Below are positions 3,521-62,230 of a stretch of DNA of 64,000 nucleotides, one piece after another. Position 1 is the stretch's first letter; each line of letters starts with the position of its first letter. The notes below the pieces were generated by a model. It did no database searches and had not been told where the DNA came from. It saw nothing but the letters and a program-made list of their open reading frames with translations. Both the position numbers and the translations under genes were made by a program. The stretch comes from Rhizopus arrhizus (Eukaryota > Mucoromycota > Mucoromycetes > Mucorales > Rhizopodaceae), in contig JAKZZE010000020.1 in the NCBI GenBank assembly GCA_024220505.1, positions 372,001 to 436,000 of the forward strand. The letters are read 5' to 3'.

Positions 3521-3880
3521 TTAGTAATCAATTTTTTTTTTTTTTTGAAAAAACTTTGCTCTCTTCTGTACTTGGCTTAATAAAATTACCTTTGCTGGTA
3601 TGATTCTATGCAGATTGGCTCGAGTGGATAATTTCTTATGAAGAAGTCTGTACCATACATTTCTAGGAGTATGGTGCATAGGGCTACTGATAAAAGCTTT
3701 CCAGTTGTTGTGACTTATGTTTATGATTTGTGAGTTTGAGTTGAAGCTGAACATTGTCTTTAGTTGATGATTTTTCAATACAGTTATATTGATATCGTCA
3801 TAGCTCATCTGTTGAATGAATGGGTCAAAGTTGATACTTGATTCAATTGGATTACAGTGCAAGAAACTAGGTTGGGCCAA
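3521..3880 (-). pseudogene. Relic of a LINE reverse transcriptase C-terminus (zinc-binding region)
   Basis: A 119-codon minus-strand frame contains NVWYRLLHKKLSTRANLHRI followed by IPAKV. This resembles the start of the RT zinc-binding domain found at the C-terminus of many non-LTR reverse transcriptases (R..WYRLLH.KLPT...LH.I.P). The cysteines that should follow are missing, because the frame runs into low-complexity KKKK, so the copy is decayed. It does not match the C-terminus of the intact LINE at 10031-14978, which has a different PGGKPKECIFHP arrangement, so it probably comes from another LINE family. Confidence 0.55.
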
Positions 3881-3987
3881 TGAAAAAAAATTTTGGTCAA
3901 TTTAAAATTGAATTGGGACACGGTTGCCAAATGGGACACTAATGCGAAAATGGGACAAAGGAGAGACAGAATGTTAGTTTTTTTTTC

Positions 3988-4081
3988 TTTTTGGACAAAT
4001 AACAATTGATTTTAAATGTTTAACTCACCTTTTTTGGAAAAAGCGAAAATGGAAATCGGACAAAATAGTAATTTCTGAAAC
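3988..4081 (+). repeat. Dispersed repeat R, copy 1 (upstream of the intact Fanzor)
   Basis: This ~94-bp segment starts TTTTTGGACAAATAACAATT and includes CACCTTTTTTGGA and GGAAATCGGACAAAATAG. It aligns almost gap-free, roughly three quarters identical by eye, with 60335-60431, and many of the differences are transitions. Short GGGACA/GGACA motifs also recur irregularly around it (3914, 3932, 3951, 3991, 4058, 4116), as in the subterminal regions of DNA transposons. Both copies sit beside Fanzor genes. Confidence 0.7.
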
Positions 4082-4450
4082 CATTGCTTAAGTTATGAAT
4101 ATTCATCTTCAAAATGGACAGATTTACTTAGCCCCACTGTGTATATTACAAAATATGAAGTAGAATAAATTTTATGCAAAATGCTTATTATCTTATAACA
4201 TTACATAAGCCGTATAGCCAATTACATTACCTGCCAGTCTATTAATTAAATAGTCAAGAAAAGCATATGACTAGTAATTACGCTGGATCGCCACAAGCTA
4301 TAGTTTTGAGATGCTCCAAAGCAATTAATCAGTTTTGCTACTGTTATATATCAAAAAATTTTCATTGGTCATTAAGGATTTCAATAGAAAGTAACAGAAC
4401 TTGAACAAATCTATAGACATTTATTTTCTTTCTGAAGCTTATAATAGATA
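4082..4450. other. 5' flank of the Fanzor gene; no gene seen
   Basis: AT-rich DNA between repeat R and the Fanzor start codon, presumably holding its promoter. No convincing ORF or terminal inverted repeat was found. An 11-bp string GTGTATATTAC at 4139-4149 recurs in direct orientation at 7468-7478, on the other side of the Fanzor gene. Confidence 0.4.
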
Positions 4451-7124
4451 ATGAAGCGAAGATATAAAAATAATCCCGCGAAGAGCTCGTCAACAAAAAG
4501 AAAGATTTTAAAGAGTAAGTACCAAAATAACACATTGCGAGGTATCATGTTCCTTACTTTTTTTCAAGAAGTAAATTCTGATAATATATCAGTTACATCT
4601 GCTCTGACCACTTCAGTTGCTTCTGGTTCACAGGCTTCTACTTCACAGGCTCCTAGTGCTCTTCCTCTTACATCCAAAAAGATACAGAAGAAAATAGATA
4701 AACAACTTGCTTTGCAGGACTTTAGAATGAAAACAAAAAGCAATACAGAAAAGACATGTCCTTCTTGCGGATTGCATACTCACTCAAGATCATCATCTAA
4801 CCTTTGCCCAAAAAAGAAGCAAAAGGAGCCATCTCACAATCCTGATGAGAAAAAGGAAACTTTTGTAATCAAATCCTCCTTAAAAAATATATGTACGGAC
4901 ACAAGGGTTTATGAAAAGATTGCTTCAGTAGTGGCCTACACAACCAAAGCGATCCACGTAGGCTCACTATTCATGAACTATATTTTTTTGAAGCTTTTAA
5001 ATAAGGGAGAACAAGTGCCAATTATTGATCATACCCTTGTCTATTCTATTTTCACTGTTGTAACTGGCAATGGCAAAAAGGTTCCTAAATACTGTCAAGA
5101 TTACTTTGATGAATTTTGCAACGAATGCCAAGTCAATGAAACAATACTGCAATCCCTCAAGAGTATTGGATATTCGTCTGTTCTGTCTATTATGTGTAAA
5201 CAATACGATGTACTCATACGCAACCATGTATGTGAAAACCATGAAAGGAGAACAACCCGCTTTTTTCTGGAAGCTTTTTCAGATATGTCTTCTCCCTTCT
5301 ATTGCAAAGGATTATCAGTTGCCCAAAGAAAAGCACTCTCTCACTATGTTTATACATTAAAGCAGAAACAGCAATCAATATGGCCTTCATCTTTAGAAAG
5401 AAATCAATGTTTAGAAGAAACCATAGAGAAGATGAATGCATTATGGAGTCGATATCAGACAATGAATTGCGATGCGGAAGATCTGTACTCCAAACCTCAT
5501 GAATTCTTCAAATGGTTTTTCTATCTTCAGCAAAAGATAAATGAAAAGGTGTATATTATGGAAGAAAAACCAGCCACCTTTGCCTCCAAGTCCTACATTT
5601 ATAGGAAGTTAAAAGAACTCACGTTTACTTCAATACTCAATAGACGAAGCTTCAAGTCTTTACAGGAACAAGTACTGCAAAGCATTAATTCAAAAATACC
5701 ACTAGTACTTGGGAAAAAATTAGAGAAGCTTGAGCCCCATTTACCTGCTCTTTTGAAATTTATTACAAGTATCCAGTCTAGAATTGAAGATGGAACATTC
5801 ACGCCTGCTAAATACACGGATCGGCGAGGCTATCGCTTTTTTTCCATCTTACCTGTATACTCATTTGCGATGAAGTCAATACAAATAGATGCCCAAGCTT
5901 TCTGGCGACTGTTGAAGCAATCTGGTATTGAAAATATCCCAAAAGGTGTTAAAGATAAATCGGCTCTCTCGGACTTCTACTATAGGCTTTTTAACTTTTC
6001 CAAAATGGGATTTCGAACTCGAAAAAGCCTTTCAGAGGGGAAAAAACAGTTTCAGTAAGTTAGCTTAGTTGAATTGAAAAATAAGAGCCTTAATTTAATC
6101 AAGTTATACATAGAAACGTTATATATACCGATGGGTATTCGATTTCTTTCCTTTTTTCTAGAGTGAAGAAGAAAAAACAAATAGATACTCTACTGGGAAA
6201 ACAGCCTGAGGACTTCCTCGAAGATATTGAAAATGGTTGTGAAATTTGGGGAGTAGATCCTGGTGTTGCCACACTTGTAACTGCCGTTGATACATCCGGA
6301 AGGCAAAGGACTACAAGCTTGGACGAGTACTATCATCTGTGTGGCTATAATGATGCGAATTCTATACGAAAAAAGCATCAAGAACAACACAAGGCTCAGT
6401 TTTTGAAAATTTCTAATTTAAGCTCGTTGAAGACATCCAATATGGCAGAATTTTTAAAAGCTTGCAAAGAAAGACTAGGTTTATATGACGATATTACAAG
6501 TTACTACAATGAAAAATCTTGGTAAATAAAAATATGATTTTTTTTTTTTACTTGTTTACTTGAGCAACATGCAAAAATCTGTGTAGGTCATCAAAGCTGA
6601 AGTTCAAATGCTACATTAGAAAACAAAAAGGTGTTCATGAGATCTGTAAGCGCTTCATTCACGGTAGTGCCAAATACGATGTAAAAGCAACCACAGGCGT
6701 AAGAACATCTACCAAGAAAGAGAATAGATACTATCCTTCTGCTCCCATTGATCACAAAAAAAGATCCAAGAAAACCATCATTGCTTTTGGTGATGGTATG
6801 TTTGGTTCCAGCCTCCGTGGAAATAAATCTGCTCCTGTGCGGATGATTAAGAAGGCTTTGAAAAAATATTGTGGAAAGCAGCTTGATATTTGCATGGTGG
6901 ATGAATGCTTAACAAGCCAAATCTGCAACAAATGCAAGACTAGAAACGTAGACAATGTTGTAACCGCCAAATCAAAACGAAGAGTACATACGGTATTGCA
7001 GTGTAAGCAAAACAATTGCAATATCATATGGAATCGTGATATCATGGCTGCTCATAACATACTGGATATATTTTTATTTGCTGCAAAAAACAAAAATCAG
7101 CGTCTTGATGCCTTTGTGCGTTAG
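4451..7124 (+). CDS. Fanzor (eukaryotic TnpB-like RNA-guided nuclease), apparently intact
   Basis: Fanzors are eukaryotic relatives of transposon TnpB and of Cas12; characterised members cut DNA guided by an omega-RNA transcribed from the 3' end of their own locus. Inferred exons 4451-4514, 4569-6054, 6162-6521 and 6587-7124 join to 815 residues with no stop. Near residue 80 is a zinc-knuckle-like CPSCGLHTHSRSSSNLC. The C-terminal half has RuvC-I (GVDPGVATLV, D549), then FGDGMFGSSLRG, then VDECLTSQIC (E743, the shifted glutamate typical of the rearranged Fanzor RuvC site), a zinc ribbon (CNKC ... CKQNNC) and RuvC-III (NRDIMAAHNIL, D788). All three acidic residues and four ribbon cysteines are present, so catalytic capacity is plausible. 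Exons 1-2 contain no other recognised domain. The first intron (54 nt) is stop-free and in frame, so a retained-intron isoform is possible. Membership is judged from motifs alone. Confidence 0.88.
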
Positions 7125-7501
7125 TTAGATCCCAGTGGCCAGCTTTCCGTGTGATTGATATGACTCTCTCATACTTCTGTACAGTGTAAGTTGGACAAGT
7201 TTTTTTTTTTTTTTTTTCTTACGCTTACGGATAATGTACTAACCACCTTAAATCTACAAAACTAGTTTCTTTAACTGTAGATTCTAAATATCTATTTTGC
7301 TTTGTTTTTAACCACTAAAATTATTTAAAATAGAAGAAGGAATAATGATGCTGATAGACTATATAACTAGTCTATTAAACTAAACAAAAAATTAAAAGAT
7401 TATAATATTTCAAATATATTTTATTGAATCAAATGTAATCCTCTTTTATTAAATGATTACATATAGAGTGTATATTACTGTACAAATCAATTTTCTTTTT
7501 T
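7125..7501 (+). other. Fanzor 3' flank; candidate omega-RNA region
   Basis: Characterised Fanzor/TnpB loci encode the guide RNA across the end of the ORF and into the element's right end, so this flank is where it would lie. The sequence holds a palindromic CTGTACAG near 7187, TACAGTGTAAGTTGGACAAG at 7189-7208 and an adjacent T run, beyond which it is AT-rich up to the stop of the next gene. I could not identify the RNA structure or the element end by eye. Confidence 0.3.
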
Positions 7502-9887: not shown

Positions 9888-10016
9888 GGTTTTTGAACTT
9901 TTTTTTCTGGATAAATATACTATTTCCAGAAATTAAAGTCGCATTTTGTAAGGTTTTATAATACAATTTATATGTAATTGCGACAAGTCATGGCGACATC
10001 AATTTCTAGAAATAGT

Positions 10017-10030
10017 GTATAGTGAACGTA
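10017..10030 (+). repeat. Target-site duplication, left copy (LINE)
   Basis: GTATAGTGAACGTA, identical to 14979-14992 and directly abutting the LINE. A 14-bp perfect direct repeat on both sides of a two-ORF element is the signature of target-primed reverse transcription. Confidence 0.88.
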
Positions 10031-10143
10031 AAAAAGCTTTTTTCCGCTTTCCAACACTATTACCAAATTTGGAAAGTCATTTACAACACTACACTCACAT
10101 TAACTCCAACACATCTCAACAAAAACATCTCGACAAGCCTACA

Positions 10144-11355
10144 ATGACGGCAGTTCGGGGACCTTATAATAAGTCTTCACAACGTATTCCTCTTACTGAC
10201 GACCAACTAGAAACCCTTGCGAAGGGTTTCATTGAACATCGCAAGACTGTTCCTTGTCCTCACTGCAAAATTCCTACGGTCTTTCGTACCAAAGGTAAAA
10301 GCAAAGCCGCCAATCACGAAAAAGAACATGAATACCTATGCACTGTTTGCAGTCGTATAATGCATGCTGATGACATGCTCGCACTTGTTACCCGTCGGTA
10401 TGACATGGAGGAGGATTCTCAACCCCCAGCCATTGCTTCTCAACCTCAAGTTACTTCGTCTCAACCTCAGCTACCTTCACCATTTCCACCCCAACTCGAA
10501 ATGGGCGCTACACCAGACATGCAAACGCTATTTCAGATGCTCATGACTCTAACCACCGAACTCCAACAAGCTCGAACTGAAATCGCAAACCTCAAGGAAC
10601 AACTCAACAGCAAGCAACAGCATCAACCACCTCCAGTTTCACCCATAACCTTGGAGGATGATTTCCCAGCTCTACCAGTATCCAAGTACCAATCAGCTCC
10701 TTGGCACCAACCCCAAAAGGTGTTGTCTCTTGCACAAATAGTTTCAAAAAACCAAGAGAAACGTGAAACTACAGCTGCTCGTTTTTTCCAAGCTCCTTCT
10801 ACTACTCAAGGTTTCCAGTATCTCTATCTCCCCACTAAGGCTCGTATTCCCCTTGGTAAACTTCGCACTACTTTCAAGAAACTGGGTGTTAATAATGGTC
10901 GTCTTCTGGACCTCCATTATCCCGATCGTAACATTGTTGCTGTACTTGTACACAACGATTATGCTCCAGAACTAACAGAACTATTAACTAAAAAAGGTGT
11001 CAAACTCAACACCACCTTCGACCCATGTGCTGCAAGCGTGCTCAAAGATCCAAAATATGCTACTGACACTCTTGAACAACGTCAACAAACTGCTCAACAA
11101 CTCCACAACCAACGGGTACAAAAAGCCCTGGTCCATATCCGCGGTCCCGCCAAATTTGCGGTGGCTCGTTTCTTTGCTCACAAATCATGGATTACAAAGA
11201 CACAACTTGATGAAGTCCTCGCAACTGATCCCTATTTTGCTCACTCCAAGGATCCTGACACTGAAGACATTTTTATCACTGAAGACAATGCTTCCGTTGG
11301 TTCTGCTAAATCCAGCATGGAGGAGGACGACCCCCTTACTACAAGTTCTCAATGA
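10144..11355 (+). CDS. LINE ORF1 protein (zinc-binding, coiled-coil, nucleic-acid chaperone type)
   Basis: This 403-residue protein probably coats the LINE RNA. The first ATG in frame is at 10144 (MTAVRGPYNKSSQRIPLTDD); the frame is open further upstream but only from a GTG inside the target repeat. Residues ~35-75 carry paired cysteines around a His-rich segment (CPHCKIPTVF ... HEYLCTVCSRIM), a likely zinc-binding module. A Pro/Gln-rich stretch leads into a short coiled coil (LMTLTTELQQARTEIANLKE). After that is a segment that may fold like an RRM (FQYLYLPTKARIPLGKLRTT, NIVAVLVHNDYAPELTELL). The tail is acidic. The stop codon overlaps the ORF2 start as ATGA. Confidence 0.82.
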   Translation: MTAVRGPYNKSSQRIPLTDDQLETLAKGFIEHRKTVPCPHCKIPTVFRTKGKSKAANHEKEHEYLCTVCSRIMHADDMLALVTRRYDMEEDSQPPAIASQPQVTSSQPQLPSPFPPQLEMGATPDMQTLFQMLMTLTTELQQARTEIANLKEQLNSKQQHQPPPVSPITLEDDFPALPVSKYQSAPWHQPQKVLSLAQIVSKNQEKRETTAARFFQAPSTTQGFQYLYLPTKARIPLGKLRTTFKKLGVNNGRLLDLHYPDRNIVAVLVHNDYAPELTELLTKKGVKLNTTFDPCAASVLKDPKYATDTLEQRQQTAQQLHNQRVQKALVHIRGPAKFAVARFFAHKSWITKTQLDEVLATDPYFAHSKDPDTEDIFITEDNASVGSAKSSMEEDDPLTTSSQ

Positions 11356-14300
11356 GTGGTGTCCCATTGAGAATATCACTTTTTAATGCTACTGGTCTTC
11401 CTAAACAATCTATTTATCCATTGATAAATATTGCTCAAAACTCATCTTTACTATTTATTACTGAAACTTGGTTACTATCTCCAAACAAATATTCACTTCC
11501 ATCTTGGAAACAATTTCATACTTATGGTGTTCCTGTCAACTCTTCTAATCTACATCGTGGTCAACTTGGTCTAGCTCTTCTGGTTAATCCGGATTTCAAG
11601 CTCCCAATTCATCACATCAACCATGTCAATCCTCTATTGGCTAAGTTTACTCTATCAATTATTATAAATTCTAAATTACTAATTCACTGCTTATATCTTC
11701 CTCCTTCTTTAGAATCAGCTCAAGTATCGGAAATTCTCTCACTATTACCTCTGGACTATCCTACAACAAACAAGACTATTATATGTGGTGACTTCAACTC
11801 ACGTATTGGTGAACTAGTTGGTGACAGCAGGTGGAACACCAGCGGACGAATCTTTCGCAATTGGATGGAAGCTCATAATTTGATACTATGGAATCAGTAC
11901 TTGGCCTTTGGACAACCAACAAGTTATACTTATCACGGCACGAGTATTATCGATTACTTTCTTAGTAATACTGAACTGGATAACCCGGACTTAGTTATTG
12001 AAGATGAACTTTCTTTGAACTCTAACCACACATTCATGACTTTATCTTTTAATCTATCTCCAGCATATACATTTCACAACCTATCTACTGAGATCCATAG
12101 ACCACATTGGAATCTGAAGAAACTCAAAAAACTGGATTGCAGCGGCAGGTATGAGTCTGCTTTCAAAAATGGCACTACTAGTCTTGTGGCTCAATCGGAC
12201 GATGATACTGATGAAACTATGTTGATGGATATGGATGCTGCTAGTACTTATATTGAACAATACTCATCTGCACTATGCCAAGCGATCTACGACTCACTAG
12301 ATGAAATATGCGGGAAAAAGGACACTAATGCTGACGTGTTTTTAAAACAATTCTGGACTACTGAAATGACTTCAGCTTTCAAGCGTAAACAATTTTATTT
12401 TAAAAAGTGGAGAAAGGCGAATGGATTGAACTGTCTTAAATATTGGCTAAAACACCAAGAAACAGGTGCATTATTGCAACGTTTGATTCAGCAACGGCGC
12501 AGGGAGACGTGGAAACAATTTTGTAGCAAAATGGCGACTGGTGAATACACAAAAGCAATTGCCCGCTTTAGTAGGATTCGTAAAAACAGGACAATTAAGC
12601 CCTCCTTCTCACCTGAACCAGGTATCAATCGCGCCCCAGCTGACGTTATGGCCGACCATCTCAAAGATATTTTTGCCGGACAACTTCTCACCTCAACACC
12701 GGATCTGGATTCGTCTCCTACTTTAACTAGCAGCCCTCCTTTTGATTTAGATCCATGTCCCTTCTCCTCTGATCAAATTCATGAGACTCTAAAGCAACTA
12801 CCTCGTAAAAAAGCTCCTGGTGTTGATCACATACAGACGGAAATGTTATTGCCTCTACTTCCTACGTTGGTCCCACAGCTTCTACATCTCTTTCGTGTCT
12901 GCTGGCAATGGTCCTACACTCCCCTCTCATGGCGAGTTGCACAGGTGGTACCGATACACAAGAAAGGCTCTAAAACTGACCCGGGAAACTTCAGACCGAT
13001 TAGCTTGACATCCACTTTCCGTAAATTGTTTGAAAAATGTTTATATCCAAGTCTCCTAGAACAAAGCCCTGCTCTCGATATTGCACAGGGTGGATTCCGT
13101 GAATCTCGCAGCTCTTTAGATCAAGTCCAATGTCTCATAGAAATCTGCTCTATCCTTAGTCGTAACCATAACTCCTTCCCTACACTGGCCTTCTTGGATA
13201 TAAAATCAGCTTATGATACGGTTGATCGTTCCTACGTTTGGCGTGAACTACAATCCCATCTTTGCCCTGCTTTACTAGGTATCCTCAAAAACCTCTTCGA
13301 TCATGTCCAAATAGAAATTCTACTTGATAATCATGTATCTTATCGCTTCTCTCCAGTTACTGGTGTACTTCAAGGTTCCATCCTCTCACCTTTCTTGTAC
13401 TCTATATACATTAATCGACTTCCGTCTATCTTAAGGCAACCACTTCTGTTTGATAACTCATTTTCTGGTGATATTGTGTCCGACCTGACTCCATCTATCA
13501 ATTGTCTACTCTATGCAGACGACGTTGTCCTTATTGCCAATCCTGAGAACCTCACTTCTTTACTGCACAAATGCGAAGCTCATAGTTACTCCTTAGGTTA
13601 TCGGTGGAACCCGTTAAAATGTGTCATAGTTGCTCCTACTAGTGATATTACAACTTATCAATTATATGGTACTACTATCCCCAAAGAATCCTCTTTCTCA
13701 TACTTGGGTATACCTATCAAACCTGGTGGACTAATAGACTATCCTGCTATGATCCAACACAATATCAATAAGGCATCTCTCACAATGAACCAACTTGCTG
13801 CTATTGGTCTCAATTCTAAAGGTTTTCCACCTTTATTAGCATGTCGTTTTTACAGCCAAATGGTCCGTGCTCAATTAGATTATGGTCTTGCGATTAGTCC
13901 TCTCACAACTAAATTTATCCATCAACTTGATACTTTCCAAAACCAATGTATTAGACGTATCTTCGGCGGTCATTCTAGGTCTTCAGCTCAAGTCATGCTT
14001 CATCTAGTCAATCTCCCATCGATGCGAACTCGTGTTGCAGTCCTTCAAGCCCAGTATCTTTTTCGTAGTACTCATTTACCAGATGATACTCTTCTTGCTC
14101 ATCTGCTGCCATATATTCAATCTTCAACTAGCCGCTCTCACTGGTACAAACTGACTAATACTCCAATGTGGAAATCCCTCTGTGGACCAATCCTTGATAC
14201 TTTAGATAAAAAGAAATTTCTCTCTCTTCGCACCAAATTCTTAGCTGATCAATTTCAAAATCTATGTAATAACTCTGATTCCATCCTGTTATCCTCTACT

Positions 14301-14693
14301 CGCCCTACTATCCAAGTGGATCCTATTCTTTGGTTACCGATGACTTGTTCTGAACGTAGTCGTGTCCTTCGCTGGCGTCTTGGTTGGCTACCTGGTGGTA
14401 AACCTAAAGAATGCATCTTCCATCCTTATCATAACTGGAGTCGTCGACATGCTTTTGACTGTCTAAATGTTCATCATCGTCTGTACTTGCCTCGCTCAAT
14501 TGAAGATCCAATCTCTTTCCTTCTTAATTTGCTACCATTACATAAACCTCGTCCTACTGCTTCTCATAGCTGGTTTATTCTATGGCCTATCCTATGTACG
14601 ATTCTCCATGAACTGGATTATTATTTTCATGATGAATGCCCCCCTCCTCCTGTTGATCCTGGTGTCAAGCTGTTGAATTGGTTATCCAAGTAA
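11352..14693 (+). CDS. LINE ORF2: endonuclease-reverse transcriptase
   Basis: ORF2 encodes 1,113 residues. Residues ~1-235 are an exonuclease-endonuclease-phosphatase (APE-like) domain that nicks target DNA: SLFNATGLPK, LLFITETWLL, IICGDFNSRIG, IIDYFLSN and the SNHTFMTLSF histidine motif. The reverse transcriptase follows at ~500-800, with VVPIHKKGS, FRPISLTSTFRKLFEKCL, LAFLDIKSAYDTVDR, GVLQGSILSPFLYSIYINRL and the catalytic LLYADDVVLI near residue 720. The C-terminus has a Cys/His cluster (PKECIFHPYHNWSRRHAFDC) of the zinc-knuckle type. No frameshift or stop is present. The four-base ATGA overlap with ORF1 suggests translation by termination-reinitiation. Confidence 0.93.
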   Translation: MSGVPLRISLFNATGLPKQSIYPLINIAQNSSLLFITETWLLSPNKYSLPSWKQFHTYGVPVNSSNLHRGQLGLALLVNPDFKLPIHHINHVNPLLAKFTLSIIINSKLLIHCLYLPPSLESAQVSEILSLLPLDYPTTNKTIICGDFNSRIGELVGDSRWNTSGRIFRNWMEAHNLILWNQYLAFGQPTSYTYHGTSIIDYFLSNTELDNPDLVIEDELSLNSNHTFMTLSFNLSPAYTFHNLSTEIHRPHWNLKKLKKLDCSGRYESAFKNGTTSLVAQSDDDTDETMLMDMDAASTYIEQYSSALCQAIYDSLDEICGKKDTNADVFLKQFWTTEMTSAFKRKQFYFKKWRKANGLNCLKYWLKHQETGALLQRLIQQRRRETWKQFCSKMATGEYTKAIARFSRIRKNRTIKPSFSPEPGINRAPADVMADHLKDIFAGQLLTSTPDLDSSPTLTSSPPFDLDPCPFSSDQIHETLKQLPRKKAPGVDHIQTEMLLPLLPTLVPQLLHLFRVCWQWSYTPLSWRVAQVVPIHKKGSKTDPGNFRPISLTSTFRKLFEKCLYPSLLEQSPALDIAQGGFRESRSSLDQVQCLIEICSILSRNHNSFPTLAFLDIKSAYDTVDRSYVWRELQSHLCPALLGILKNLFDHVQIEILLDNHVSYRFSPVTGVLQGSILSPFLYSIYINRLPSILRQPLLFDNSFSGDIVSDLTPSINCLLYADDVVLIANPENLTSLLHKCEAHSYSLGYRWNPLKCVIVAPTSDITTYQLYGTTIPKESSFSYLGIPIKPGGLIDYPAMIQHNINKASLTMNQLAAIGLNSKGFPPLLACRFYSQMVRAQLDYGLAISPLTTKFIHQLDTFQNQCIRRIFGGHSRSSAQVMLHLVNLPSMRTRVAVLQAQYLFRSTHLPDDTLLAHLLPYIQSSTSRSHWYKLTNTPMWKSLCGPILDTLDKKKFLSLRTKFLADQFQNLCNNSDSILLSSTRPTIQVDPILWLPMTCSERSRVLRWRLGWLPGGKPKECIFHPYHNWSRRHAFDCLNVHHRLYLPRSIEDPISFLLNLLPLHKPRPTASHSWFILWPILCTILHELDYYFHDECPPPPVDPGVKLLNWLSK

Positions 14694-60550: not shown

Positions 60551-61105
60551 TTAACTAGGGTAGTTCAAGATGATAACTTTAGCAGTGAAAGAATCAACTT
60601 TTTTAGCAGGATTTCTCTTGAAGTTAGAGCAGACGTTACCACGACGGATATCCTTGACAGAGACGTGTTGTCATCAGGTATATGAGTACCGTATCAGCCA
60701 GAAATGGGGACGAAAGGAACAGACTTGGGGTTGAAGCCAATCTTCTTGATGAAGAAGGAGACCTCCTTGACAATGTCGTTATAACGAGCTTCGGACCACT
60801 TGGATCCTGCTGATAGCAACAATCAATTGATGGACGCCGAGGATGAAGGCAAGAAGAGCGTGTTCACGGGTTTTATCATCCTTGGAAATAGCAGCAGCAT
60901 CACCAACAATGATAAGAATTACATGATCGGCTTGAGAAAAGTACCAGTAAATATAGTCTTGATGAAATCTCTGTGACCAGGAGCATCAATAACAGCGTGG
61001 GGTTTCGAACTTCAAGAGAGCAATATCGATGGTGGTAATCCGTTCACGTCCGGCCTTAAGCTTATCGAGGATCCAAGCGTACTTGAAAGGGCTCTTACCA
61101 AGTTC
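60551..61105 (-). pseudogene. TEF1: Elongation factor 1-alpha pseudogene (truncated, internally deleted)
   Basis: Minus-strand translation gives unmistakable EF-1alpha pieces: [84 protein letters not shown] and [20 protein letters not shown]. The first ~45 codons, including the P-loop, are absent. The segment around GTGEFEAG is deleted, domain 2 is mostly missing between FVPISG and SVKDIRRG, and there are several frameshifts and stops (for example after ETPRCY). It cannot encode a functional factor. Its 5' edge joins the Fanzor relic directly, in frame. The functional tef1 gene is not in this window. Confidence 0.9.
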
Positions 61106-62230
61106 AGGATTTCCTTCACCATCGTTTTTCTTCGGCTTGAAAACTTCCGGTCGTCCTTCTCCCATCCAAACTGCCTCAGAGATCGTCATCATATTAGTGG
61201 CGGCGTTGGCGTCTCGTTGCCAAACCTTCTTACATTTAGAGCAACTGAGAACACCTTTGCCCTTAAAACCGGGTGTTTTGACTACTTTAAGATCATCGAA
61301 AAAACAGGAGCTACACGTCTTTGATGTTTTAAATTCGTCGATCGTCACGACGATCAACTTACCAGCAGCTTCACGTTTTTTCAACGTTGCAAAAAGTTTT
61401 CCTATCACCTCACACTGAAACCCTTTCATCTTGACCCCTATCCTTGCCGAAAACACCGGCACCAAAAACGACCAACGGACACTTTTCTTTGTTTTCTTGG
61501 AAAGGAAAGGGCCTCCACTTCAACCTTTCAAAAAAAAAAAAAAAAAAAGTCAATAACGTCTACTAAAGAAATGCTAATTGCTTACTTCTTTTCGTCAGTG
61601 CGCAATGATAACCCTTCATCTTCCTTCTTATCATTCTTGTCTTTCTTCTTCTTCTTTCGCTTTCTCCGTGATCTGTTGTACTTGGCTGTTCCATGAGTCA
61701 ACATGTTAGCCATCATTTCCGGTGCCCTCTGTCGGCCTTGATAAAGCTGGAATCGATAATGCGCAGTGTCTTTGCCATAGAAATCCAGGAGCCTGTCAAG
61801 GTGTGTTAGCGTGTATTTAACATATTGATCGTATGATCCAACCGCTGCTGTTTTTGGTGTGGGAATTTGAGACTCGATCGTCTTGATGCCAGAACACTTT
61901 TTTTTTAACTCGAGTTTTTTTGCTATAGACAGTACTACCTGTTAAATGATAATATTCTTTTACAGAGGACTTCCGGATCTGCTTGGCTGAAGCTACGCCA
62001 ACAACTGTAGTGAATAATGATTTACGCCCAGGGTCAAGGAACATGGTATTCTGTTTGGTAATTTGTTGAGAAGGAACGATAGAGGACCTTGGACTGTTTA
62101 TGACATTTGTAAGTGATGGTGCATATCGAGACATCTTATTGCATGTTGTTTTGTGAGCATCTGGGTAGGATGTCTCGGACAGGGTTCTAGTTTGCCGCCA
62201 GGTAACCGGCCAAGACGCCAGCGTACACAT
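61106..62230 (-). pseudogene. Second Fanzor gene, N-truncated and frameshifted
   Basis: RuvC-I is MFLDPGRKSLFTTVVG, followed by KSSVKEYYHLTGSTVYSKK. In the next frame come VGSYDQYVKYTLTHLDRLLD, FYGKDTAHYRFQLYQGRQRA and PEMMANMLTHGTAKYNRSRR. An intron (about 61508-61568, with a T run on the minus strand) leads to [14 protein letters not shown]. After another frameshift come [20 protein letters not shown] (the glutamate), a zinc ribbon (CSSC ... CSKC) and Ruv[17 protein letters not shown]. All three acidic residues survive, but there are frameshifts at an A run (~61914) and near 61445, only ~65 residues precede RuvC-I, and the C-terminus runs in frame into the EF-1alpha fragment. It differs strongly from the Fanzor at 4451-7124, so it belongs to another subfamily. 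Confidence 0.82.

Follow-up and report, generated by a model that had tools for sequence, protein, structure and literature searches.

Left-end scars of a Fanzor-bearing, transposase-less Tc1/mariner-type element of Rhizopus arrhizus suggest spread by homing

The Fanzor gene at 4451-7124 of a 64,000-nt stretch of Rhizopus arrhizus DNA (the window) belongs to a TA-flanked inverted-repeat element of Tc1/mariner type that lacks a transposase of its own and that is probably spread and retained by homing, the nuclease cutting the empty site and repair copying the element in. Nearly all copies have the sequence ATTA on the left flank, and on that flank only, and the left ends of a number of them, never the right ends, are overwritten by bases from the right flank of the same copy. 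We think it rather likely, though by no means certain, that these left ends are natural records of Fanzor action in its own host and that a comparable signature of Helitron-type elements in Chlamydomonas would generalise homing. The biological role of Fanzor has been stated to be unknown, with copying proposed by analogy to TnpB (PMC10432273), and the cutting of empty sites by a Fanzor that is then copied in is a role so far only proposed. If the reading is true, homing would be the general biological role of Fanzor1, whatever transposon superfamily carries it, and one-sided self-flank scars would make that role testable from genome sequence alone, so that other families and isolates could be scored. 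Among the titles and abstract openings listed for the Fanzor/TnpB literature, in a search that took in few subscription journals and preprints, none dealt with such left-end scars.

The Fanzor gene and its family

The gene model of the window copy is as follows.
4451..4514, + strand: exon 1, ATG at 4451; splice sites common to most other copies
4569..6054, + strand: exon 2, coding for the N-terminal half and its CCHC-like motif
6162..6521, + strand: exon 3, catalytic D549 codon at 6256-6258, DPG motif
6587..7124, + strand: exon 4, codons of E743 (6903-6905) and D788 (7038-7040), zinc ribbon, stop at 7122-7124

The four exons summing to 816 codons that a sequence-only reading had given hold in their coordinates and in their GT/AG introns (4515-4568, 6055-6161 and 6522-6586), with the qualification that the 816 codons (2448 nt) include the stop, so that the protein has 815 aa. 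Intron 1, which is 54 nt long, in frame and stop-free, is likely, if not proven, to be spliced out. The spliced protein has the complete RuvC triad that had been claimed for it, D549 in VDPGV, E743 in VDECLTSQIC and D788 in WNRD, together with the CxxC/Cx4C ribbon, a C4 finger of the form C750-x2-C753 and C776-x4-C781. The Fanzor/TnpB motif of Bao and Jurka, D-X(125,275)-[TS][TS]-X-X-C4 finger-X(5,50)-RD (PMC3627910), is present as D549, 196 residues, T746-S747-Q-I-C750..C753..C776..C781, 5 residues, and R787-D788. The placement of the glutamate ahead of the ribbon was also correctly seen as Fanzor-type: the Fanzor fingerprint, which is DPG in RuvC-I plus a glutamate that precedes the zinc finger by six residues (PMC10711439) and which is common to Fanzor1, Fanzor2 and pro-Fanzor TnpBs, appears here as D549-P550-G551 and as E743 with six residues to C750.

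The predicted similarity to Fanzor/TnpB was borne out by profile search. A profile of the window protein and 12 homologues placed SpuFz1 first in the PDB (E 6.8e-4; four matches), the next three profile matches being Cas12g chains (E 2.2e-3). The Pfam model PF07282 (Cas12f1-like TNB) is marginal on the spliced protein, at 25.7 bits or 0.6 below the cut-off of 26.3, and reaches 31 bits on the exon-4 frame in a six-frame search. Single-sequence phmmer of the window Fanzor against PDB sequences gave no match, and among the NCBIfam models none matched the window Fanzor, while P0011 and P0012, two of the homologues, gave TnpB matches under cut-off. The 12 homologues were obtained at E <= 1e-3 (best 2.4e-213), a similarity judged far beyond chance; those that are named come from Mucorales and Umbelopsis (Thamnidium, Cokeromyces, Rhizopus, Pilobolus), and there are further homologues in Mucor and Parasitella and one weak match in Lipomyces. 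The gene is thereby confirmed from its sequence as a real Fanzor with an intact reading frame, and it is most likely a Fanzor1 rather than a Fanzor2 because of its protein length, the type of its carrier and the SpuFz1 match.

The N-terminal half had been described as having no recognised domain beyond a zinc-knuckle-like motif. The motif, CPSCGLHTHS...C, is shared by P0002, P0007 and P0008, all homologues from Mucorales, and P0003 has a reduced version of it; an otherwise unrecognised N-terminal half is normal for this family, in which that half has diverged strongly (PMC3627910). Residues ~31-63 form an in-frame linker whose length differs among copies mostly by 15-nt steps, so that the intact proteins range from 815 to 870 aa.

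The carrier element and its copies

Comparison of the window with 27 other loci (L009-L035) defined the element.
3855..7277, + strand: Tc1/mariner-like Fanzor element, CAGTGCAAGAAACTAGG ... CTAGTTTCTTTAACTG, 3423 nt
3855..4069, + strand: left terminal inverted repeat, long form of ~215 nt, matched inversely by the right ends of other copies
7278..7279, + strand: right TA target-site duplication

The junctions found by locus comparison read TA, CAGTGCAAGAAACTAGG ... CTAGTTTCTTTAACTG, TA, with inverted repeats of ~80 to 220 nt. TA follows 27 of 27 right ends and precedes 19 of 21 left ends, the other two having TG. The genome (50.3 Mb, 41 contigs) contains, besides fragments, 23 further full-length or nearly full-length gene copies at 95-98% identity. 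The Fanzor is intact, as had been said, but it is not a lone gene: the element carries it in at least 24 near-identical copies; "uninterrupted" is likewise true of the reading frame and not of the element, whose right inverted repeat is mostly deleted in the window. A decayed or domesticated single gene that is no part of a mobile element could be argued from this loss of most of the right repeat and from the 12 of 24 copies that are not fully intact. That explanation, to which we give next to no credence, is refuted by the copy number and the 12 intact genes, the 23 further copies having different right flanks.

The gene covers 2674 of the 3423 nt and leaves no room for a DDE transposase, so that the element has none of its own; from its sequence it would be non-autonomous at most and probably is moved in trans. 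At least 199 DDE_3 matches occur in the genome, as counted from 150 scored of 1749 candidates, and when their places were compared by eye with the repeat sites, two lay on the inner side of repeat ends, one at a distance of 3.5 kb (C39:1723519, near L038) and the other of ~4.3 kb (C21:63982, near L043). As to an autonomous partner, no transposase was recognised in the stretches read at the TIR-like sites L036-L043 and at L044 and L045. Of these sites L036 and L040 are short two-ended derivatives, L037, L039 and L042 are right ends without the gene, L038 is an interrupted right end and L043 a diverged relative. L041 is the detached left end of L015, 4.4 kb off, and another transposable element appears to be inserted between; L015 was at one point taken for a 5'-truncated copy, which is rejected since it appears interrupted. 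L009 also looks 5'-truncated and may be interrupted instead.

Two further observations concern these sites. The repeats at L038 and L015/L041 are apparently interrupted by a DIRS/Crypton-like element: L038 has a tyrosine-recombinase-like frame, and similar bases are found at the L015 break. L044 (C34:1357250-1359950) and L045 represent a related repeat family, CAGCTGAAGAAAATAGGTTGGGCCA, that has TA flanks and in which no transposase was recognised; a frame of L044 contains GYARKS, gave nothing convincing in Pfam, and to us is reminiscent of serine recombinases.

Among the 24 aligned copies (the window and 23 loci), 12 combine a complete frame with solely canonical splice sites, and two more have a complete frame with one splice site altered. 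D549, E743 and D788 are kept in all 24, and one ribbon cysteine is lost in L019. All three introns are GT/AG in 19 copies, and in each of the other five a single site is altered, the intron-1 acceptor in L010, L024 and L025, the intron-1 donor in L015 and the intron-3 donor in L018. Single-nucleotide codon variants, counted with the length-variable repeat linker at residues 31-63 excluded, show replacements at 0.43 of expectation when shared (p 3e-6) and at 0.57 when private (p 1e-6), with no difference in constraint between the two classes (p 0.20). Judged by these variants, the Fanzor gene is under purifying selection.

A target motif on the left flank only

Two features adjoin the left end of the window copy.
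3850..3854, + strand: GATTA motif of the left flank, a putative TAM that takes in the left TA duplication at 3853-3854
3587..3853, - strand: LINE fragment directly left of the element, 96% to that of L011 and 97% to that of L029

Read in gene orientation, the left flanks have AT ahead of the TA or TG in 20 of 21 cases and ATTA in 18 of 21, and at position -5 A occurs 17 times, G three times and C once (n=21). Right flanks are unconstrained after their TA, where AT occurs in 6/31 as against 20/21 on the left (Fisher 6e-8). Among the 12 unaltered left ends, whose junction is not a matter of choice, there are 11 with ATTA and one with ATTG. The exceptions are L010 and L036 with ATTG and L011 with ACTA; in L011 a LINE intervenes and the motif's outer copy is ATTA, and in L021 and L029 the outer copy is AAATTA. 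A LINE adjoins the left end in the window, L021 and L029, so that the bases beyond the motif are there LINE-derived, and in the window, where GATT abuts the LINE fragment, and in L029 the motif itself may be partly LINE-derived. A motif on the left flank together with a free right flank is what a TAM-and-guide arrangement would predict, and we infer that the TAM is ATTA and that the guide is drawn from the right flank, which yields (A/G)ATTA as a testable TAM prediction.

The scars at the left ends

The terminal CAGT of the left end is altered in 9 of 21 copies (L010, L011, L019, L023, L024, L025, L026, L029 and L030), and the terminal ACTG of the right end in 0/27 Fanzor-bearing copies. For Fanzor-bearing copies the comparison is 9/19 on the left with 0/27 on the right (p 8.4e-5); seven additional right ends came from a pattern search that presupposes a normal terminus, and the counted figure stays 0/27. 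At eight of the nine altered left ends the bases found in place of the terminus are those of the copy's own right flank, over 1-11 nt. The match behind the TA is 2 nt in L010, 4 in L011, 0 in L019, 6 in L023, 10 in L024, 5 in L025, 3 in L026, 11 in L029 and 1 in L030, and the sum of 42 nt is reached in 0/200,000 permutations of the flanks. The left-junction tables were compiled by hand, and for altered ends we chose to set the junction behind TTA or TTG, a choice that matters for L026 and L030; omission of these two leaves the result at 0/200,000. It is 3e-5 without L024 and L029, 5.5e-4 if L023 is left out as well, and 235/200,000 if all five are omitted. L019, the altered end that its own flank does not match, has the same CTGT as L011 and L025, which do match theirs, and permutation without these three again gives 0/200,000.

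In five copies the replacing bases are in register with the element. A chimera made of the first 2-9 protospacer bases followed by element sequence clears the terminal mismatches of L010, L011, L023, L025 and L029; L024 can be fitted if 3 nt were lost, L026 and L030 only if the register is shifted by one base, and no such chimera fits L019. Across 18 copies the chimeras clear 23 mismatches, whereas 20,000 shuffles average 7.5 and do not exceed 19. When the longest prefix of the right flank was sought near the left junction in 31 loci, it was 13 nt in L029, 12 in L024 and 8 in L023, and at most 8 nt in 930 mismatched pairs; in L029 and L024 these are direct repeats of 13 and 12 nt that start at the TA. 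Among the left-truncated copies that have a right end (L009, L018, L022, L024 and L031-L035), a protospacer remnant of at least 8 nt is found in L024 alone.

The homing explanation and its alternatives

The proposed course of events begins with a right-end transcript that would carry a guide made of the right flank. The target would be an empty allele or sister chromatid, on which the nuclease, so guided, would recognise ATTA followed by the guide-matching sequence; the cut, which we infer to be made by this Fanzor, would fall inside the protospacer. Of the two broken ends the right one would have full homology to the filled allele, while the left one would consist of the TAM and a short non-homologous tail of protospacer that faces the left end of the element; if incompletely trimmed, the tail would become fixed over the element's first 1-11 nt. 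Repair from the filled allele would copy the element in, which amounts to homing and would provide both spread and retention. A protospacer break repaired in this manner would produce altered left ends that match their own right flank and would leave clean right termini. SpuFz1 cuts on the strand in question after base 16-17 (PMC10432273), so that tails of up to 11 nt would be possible after trimming.

The guide does not explain spread to new loci, since the right flanks of different copies are unlike. This bears on a retrohoming-like version in which the guide would pick new, ectopic targets and repair would copy the element into them. In its favor, the gene-depleted copies L032-L035 keep the right end in 4/4 cases, and the right flanks of L017 and L039 have 7 nt in common after the TA; however, similarity among 34 right flanks is within the range of control offsets, and L027 has nearly the whole gene and has lost the right end. 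Guide-directed ectopic insertion is accordingly disfavored and appears highly improbable.

Excised DNA transposons are known to undergo gap repair with template switching, and the Fanzor could be a passenger of the element, with ATTA a preference of the transposase and the scars a product of ordinary gene conversion or gap repair without a Fanzor cut. The two ends do differ, mostly CAGTGCAAG at the left and CAGTTAAAG at the right, so that a transposase could tell them apart, and the activity of the Fanzor is here predicted from sequence alone. We nevertheless regard this as unlikely, though it deserves serious weight: conversion or gap repair should affect both ends, and the 9/19 and 0/27 altered termini lie on one side; Tc1-type excision breaks the DNA at the TA, with no protospacer remaining behind the TAM; and the gene is under purifying selection. 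Neither a transposase break at the TA nor conversion from the flanks would be expected to give such one-sidedness.

The LINE at the left end offers another source of duplicated sequence on that side. One LINE family, of which 55 3' ends were found within 3 mismatches, lies against the left end of L011, L021, L029 and the window copy, and the 15-nt repeat of L029 doubles as a LINE target duplication. LINE activity is nonetheless a very unlikely cause of the left-side duplications, as flank comparison found no copy of the family at the left ends of L010, L023, L024, L025, L026 and L030, and as the protospacer of L029 is found on both sides of the LINE and so probably was there first. Apart from the question of the scars, the presence of this family at 4 of 28 Fanzor-bearing loci is an apparent LINE hot spot; in L011 a LINE frame of 743 aa reaches the element, and in L011 and L029 the LINE poly-T joins just before ACTAGG resumes in the element. 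Priming of the LINE at a Fanzor cut was considered for L021 and L029 and is weakened by L011, which has its LINE inside an element-bearing left end, so that the LINE may simply favor the left end; L021 can also be a case of a LINE inserted first.

The right end of the window copy

Two features mark the right end of the window copy.
7262..7277, + strand: right inverted repeat remnant CTAGTTTCTTTAACTG, the CATTGGC block before it being deleted here
7280..7294, + strand: putative guide (protospacer) flank, if an omega-RNA is made; length by analogy to SpuFz1 (PMC10432273)

The sequence-only reading had allowed the gene a guide of its own, and for this copy that is now doubtful because the right repeat is mostly deleted: a CATTGGC block 28 nt from the right end is present in 26 of 27 right ends and absent solely from the window copy. 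The guide scaffold of SpuFz1 is in its right repeat (PMC10432273), and if this were so here, the window copy would specify a nuclease with no guide of its own; by that analogy it probably has lost the scaffold and kept the gene. RNA folding of three right-end stretches was no better than that of shuffles (z +0.34, +0.41, +0.42), and an Rfam search gave no match within the window. Conservation of the right end was not seen, its diversity (pi 0.077 in 25 copies) exceeding that of the introns (0.019-0.041), with the left end at 0.070. No empty site of the window copy was found in repeats among the compared loci.

Relation to known systems

The nearest solved structure by profile search is that of SpuFz1, the Fanzor1 of the chytrid Spizellomyces punctatus. 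Its element SPu-1 resembles the present one in carrying a Fanzor without an internal transposase between inverted repeats with a putative TA duplication, and it has 17 full-length copies, nine of them with intact ORFs (PMC3627910). The SpuFz1 TAM is CATA, its CA lying upstream of the left repeat (PMC10432273), which parallels ATTA as AT plus TA. The TAM itself differs, and SpuFz1 has 633 aa in one ORF whereas the present protein has 815 aa and three introns; left-end chimeras are not described for SPu-1 in the available parts of its accounts (PMC3627910, PMC10432273). PpFz1, a Fanzor1 of solved structure from Parasitella parasitica (Mucorales), is probably of the same fungal order, to judge from the names of the homologues, and its TAM is ATN (PMC11423790); no PDB chain of that name was found by phmmer or profile at E <= 10. 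TnpB of IS200/IS605 ("cut-and-copy") is alike in the proposed RNA-guided cut of the empty site and the repair that copies the element (PMC10432273), but is bacterial, in contrast to the eukaryotic host, the TA-duplicating inverted-repeat element and the intron-containing gene found here.

The closest precedent for the scars themselves comes from the Fanzor1 families CRe-1/2/3 of Chlamydomonas, whose copies are 5'-truncated and 3'-intact with direct repeats of ~7-19 bp behind a T-rich TTTT, and the Fanzor-free Helitron family 1N1 has such a repeat in only one of 200 copies (PMC3627910). Whether the Fanzor protein causes the Chlamydomonas repeats was left open by Bao and Jurka, who also give ATAATTNNNN(N) repeats for MCi-2A and MCi-2D of Mucor (PMC3627910). 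Both the CRe and the MCi repeats are here read as the same signature as the left-end scars. The CRe elements do differ in having Helitron ends rather than Tc1/mariner ends, and the repeats in Rhizopus are shorter (to 13 nt), with five copies in register over the left end.

Other features of the window

A second, different Fanzor-type C-terminal half lies at 60986-62230 (- strand), with CSKC...QRD and a PF07282 match of 44 bits at 61190-61366; it is split among several frames and apparently is without an N-terminal half. The frame at 60986-61519 continues into what we presume to be an EF-1alpha fragment. At 9952-14693 (+ strand) there are LINE-like frames of 467 and 1127 aa, and this LINE is probably a young copy because its long frames are free of stops.
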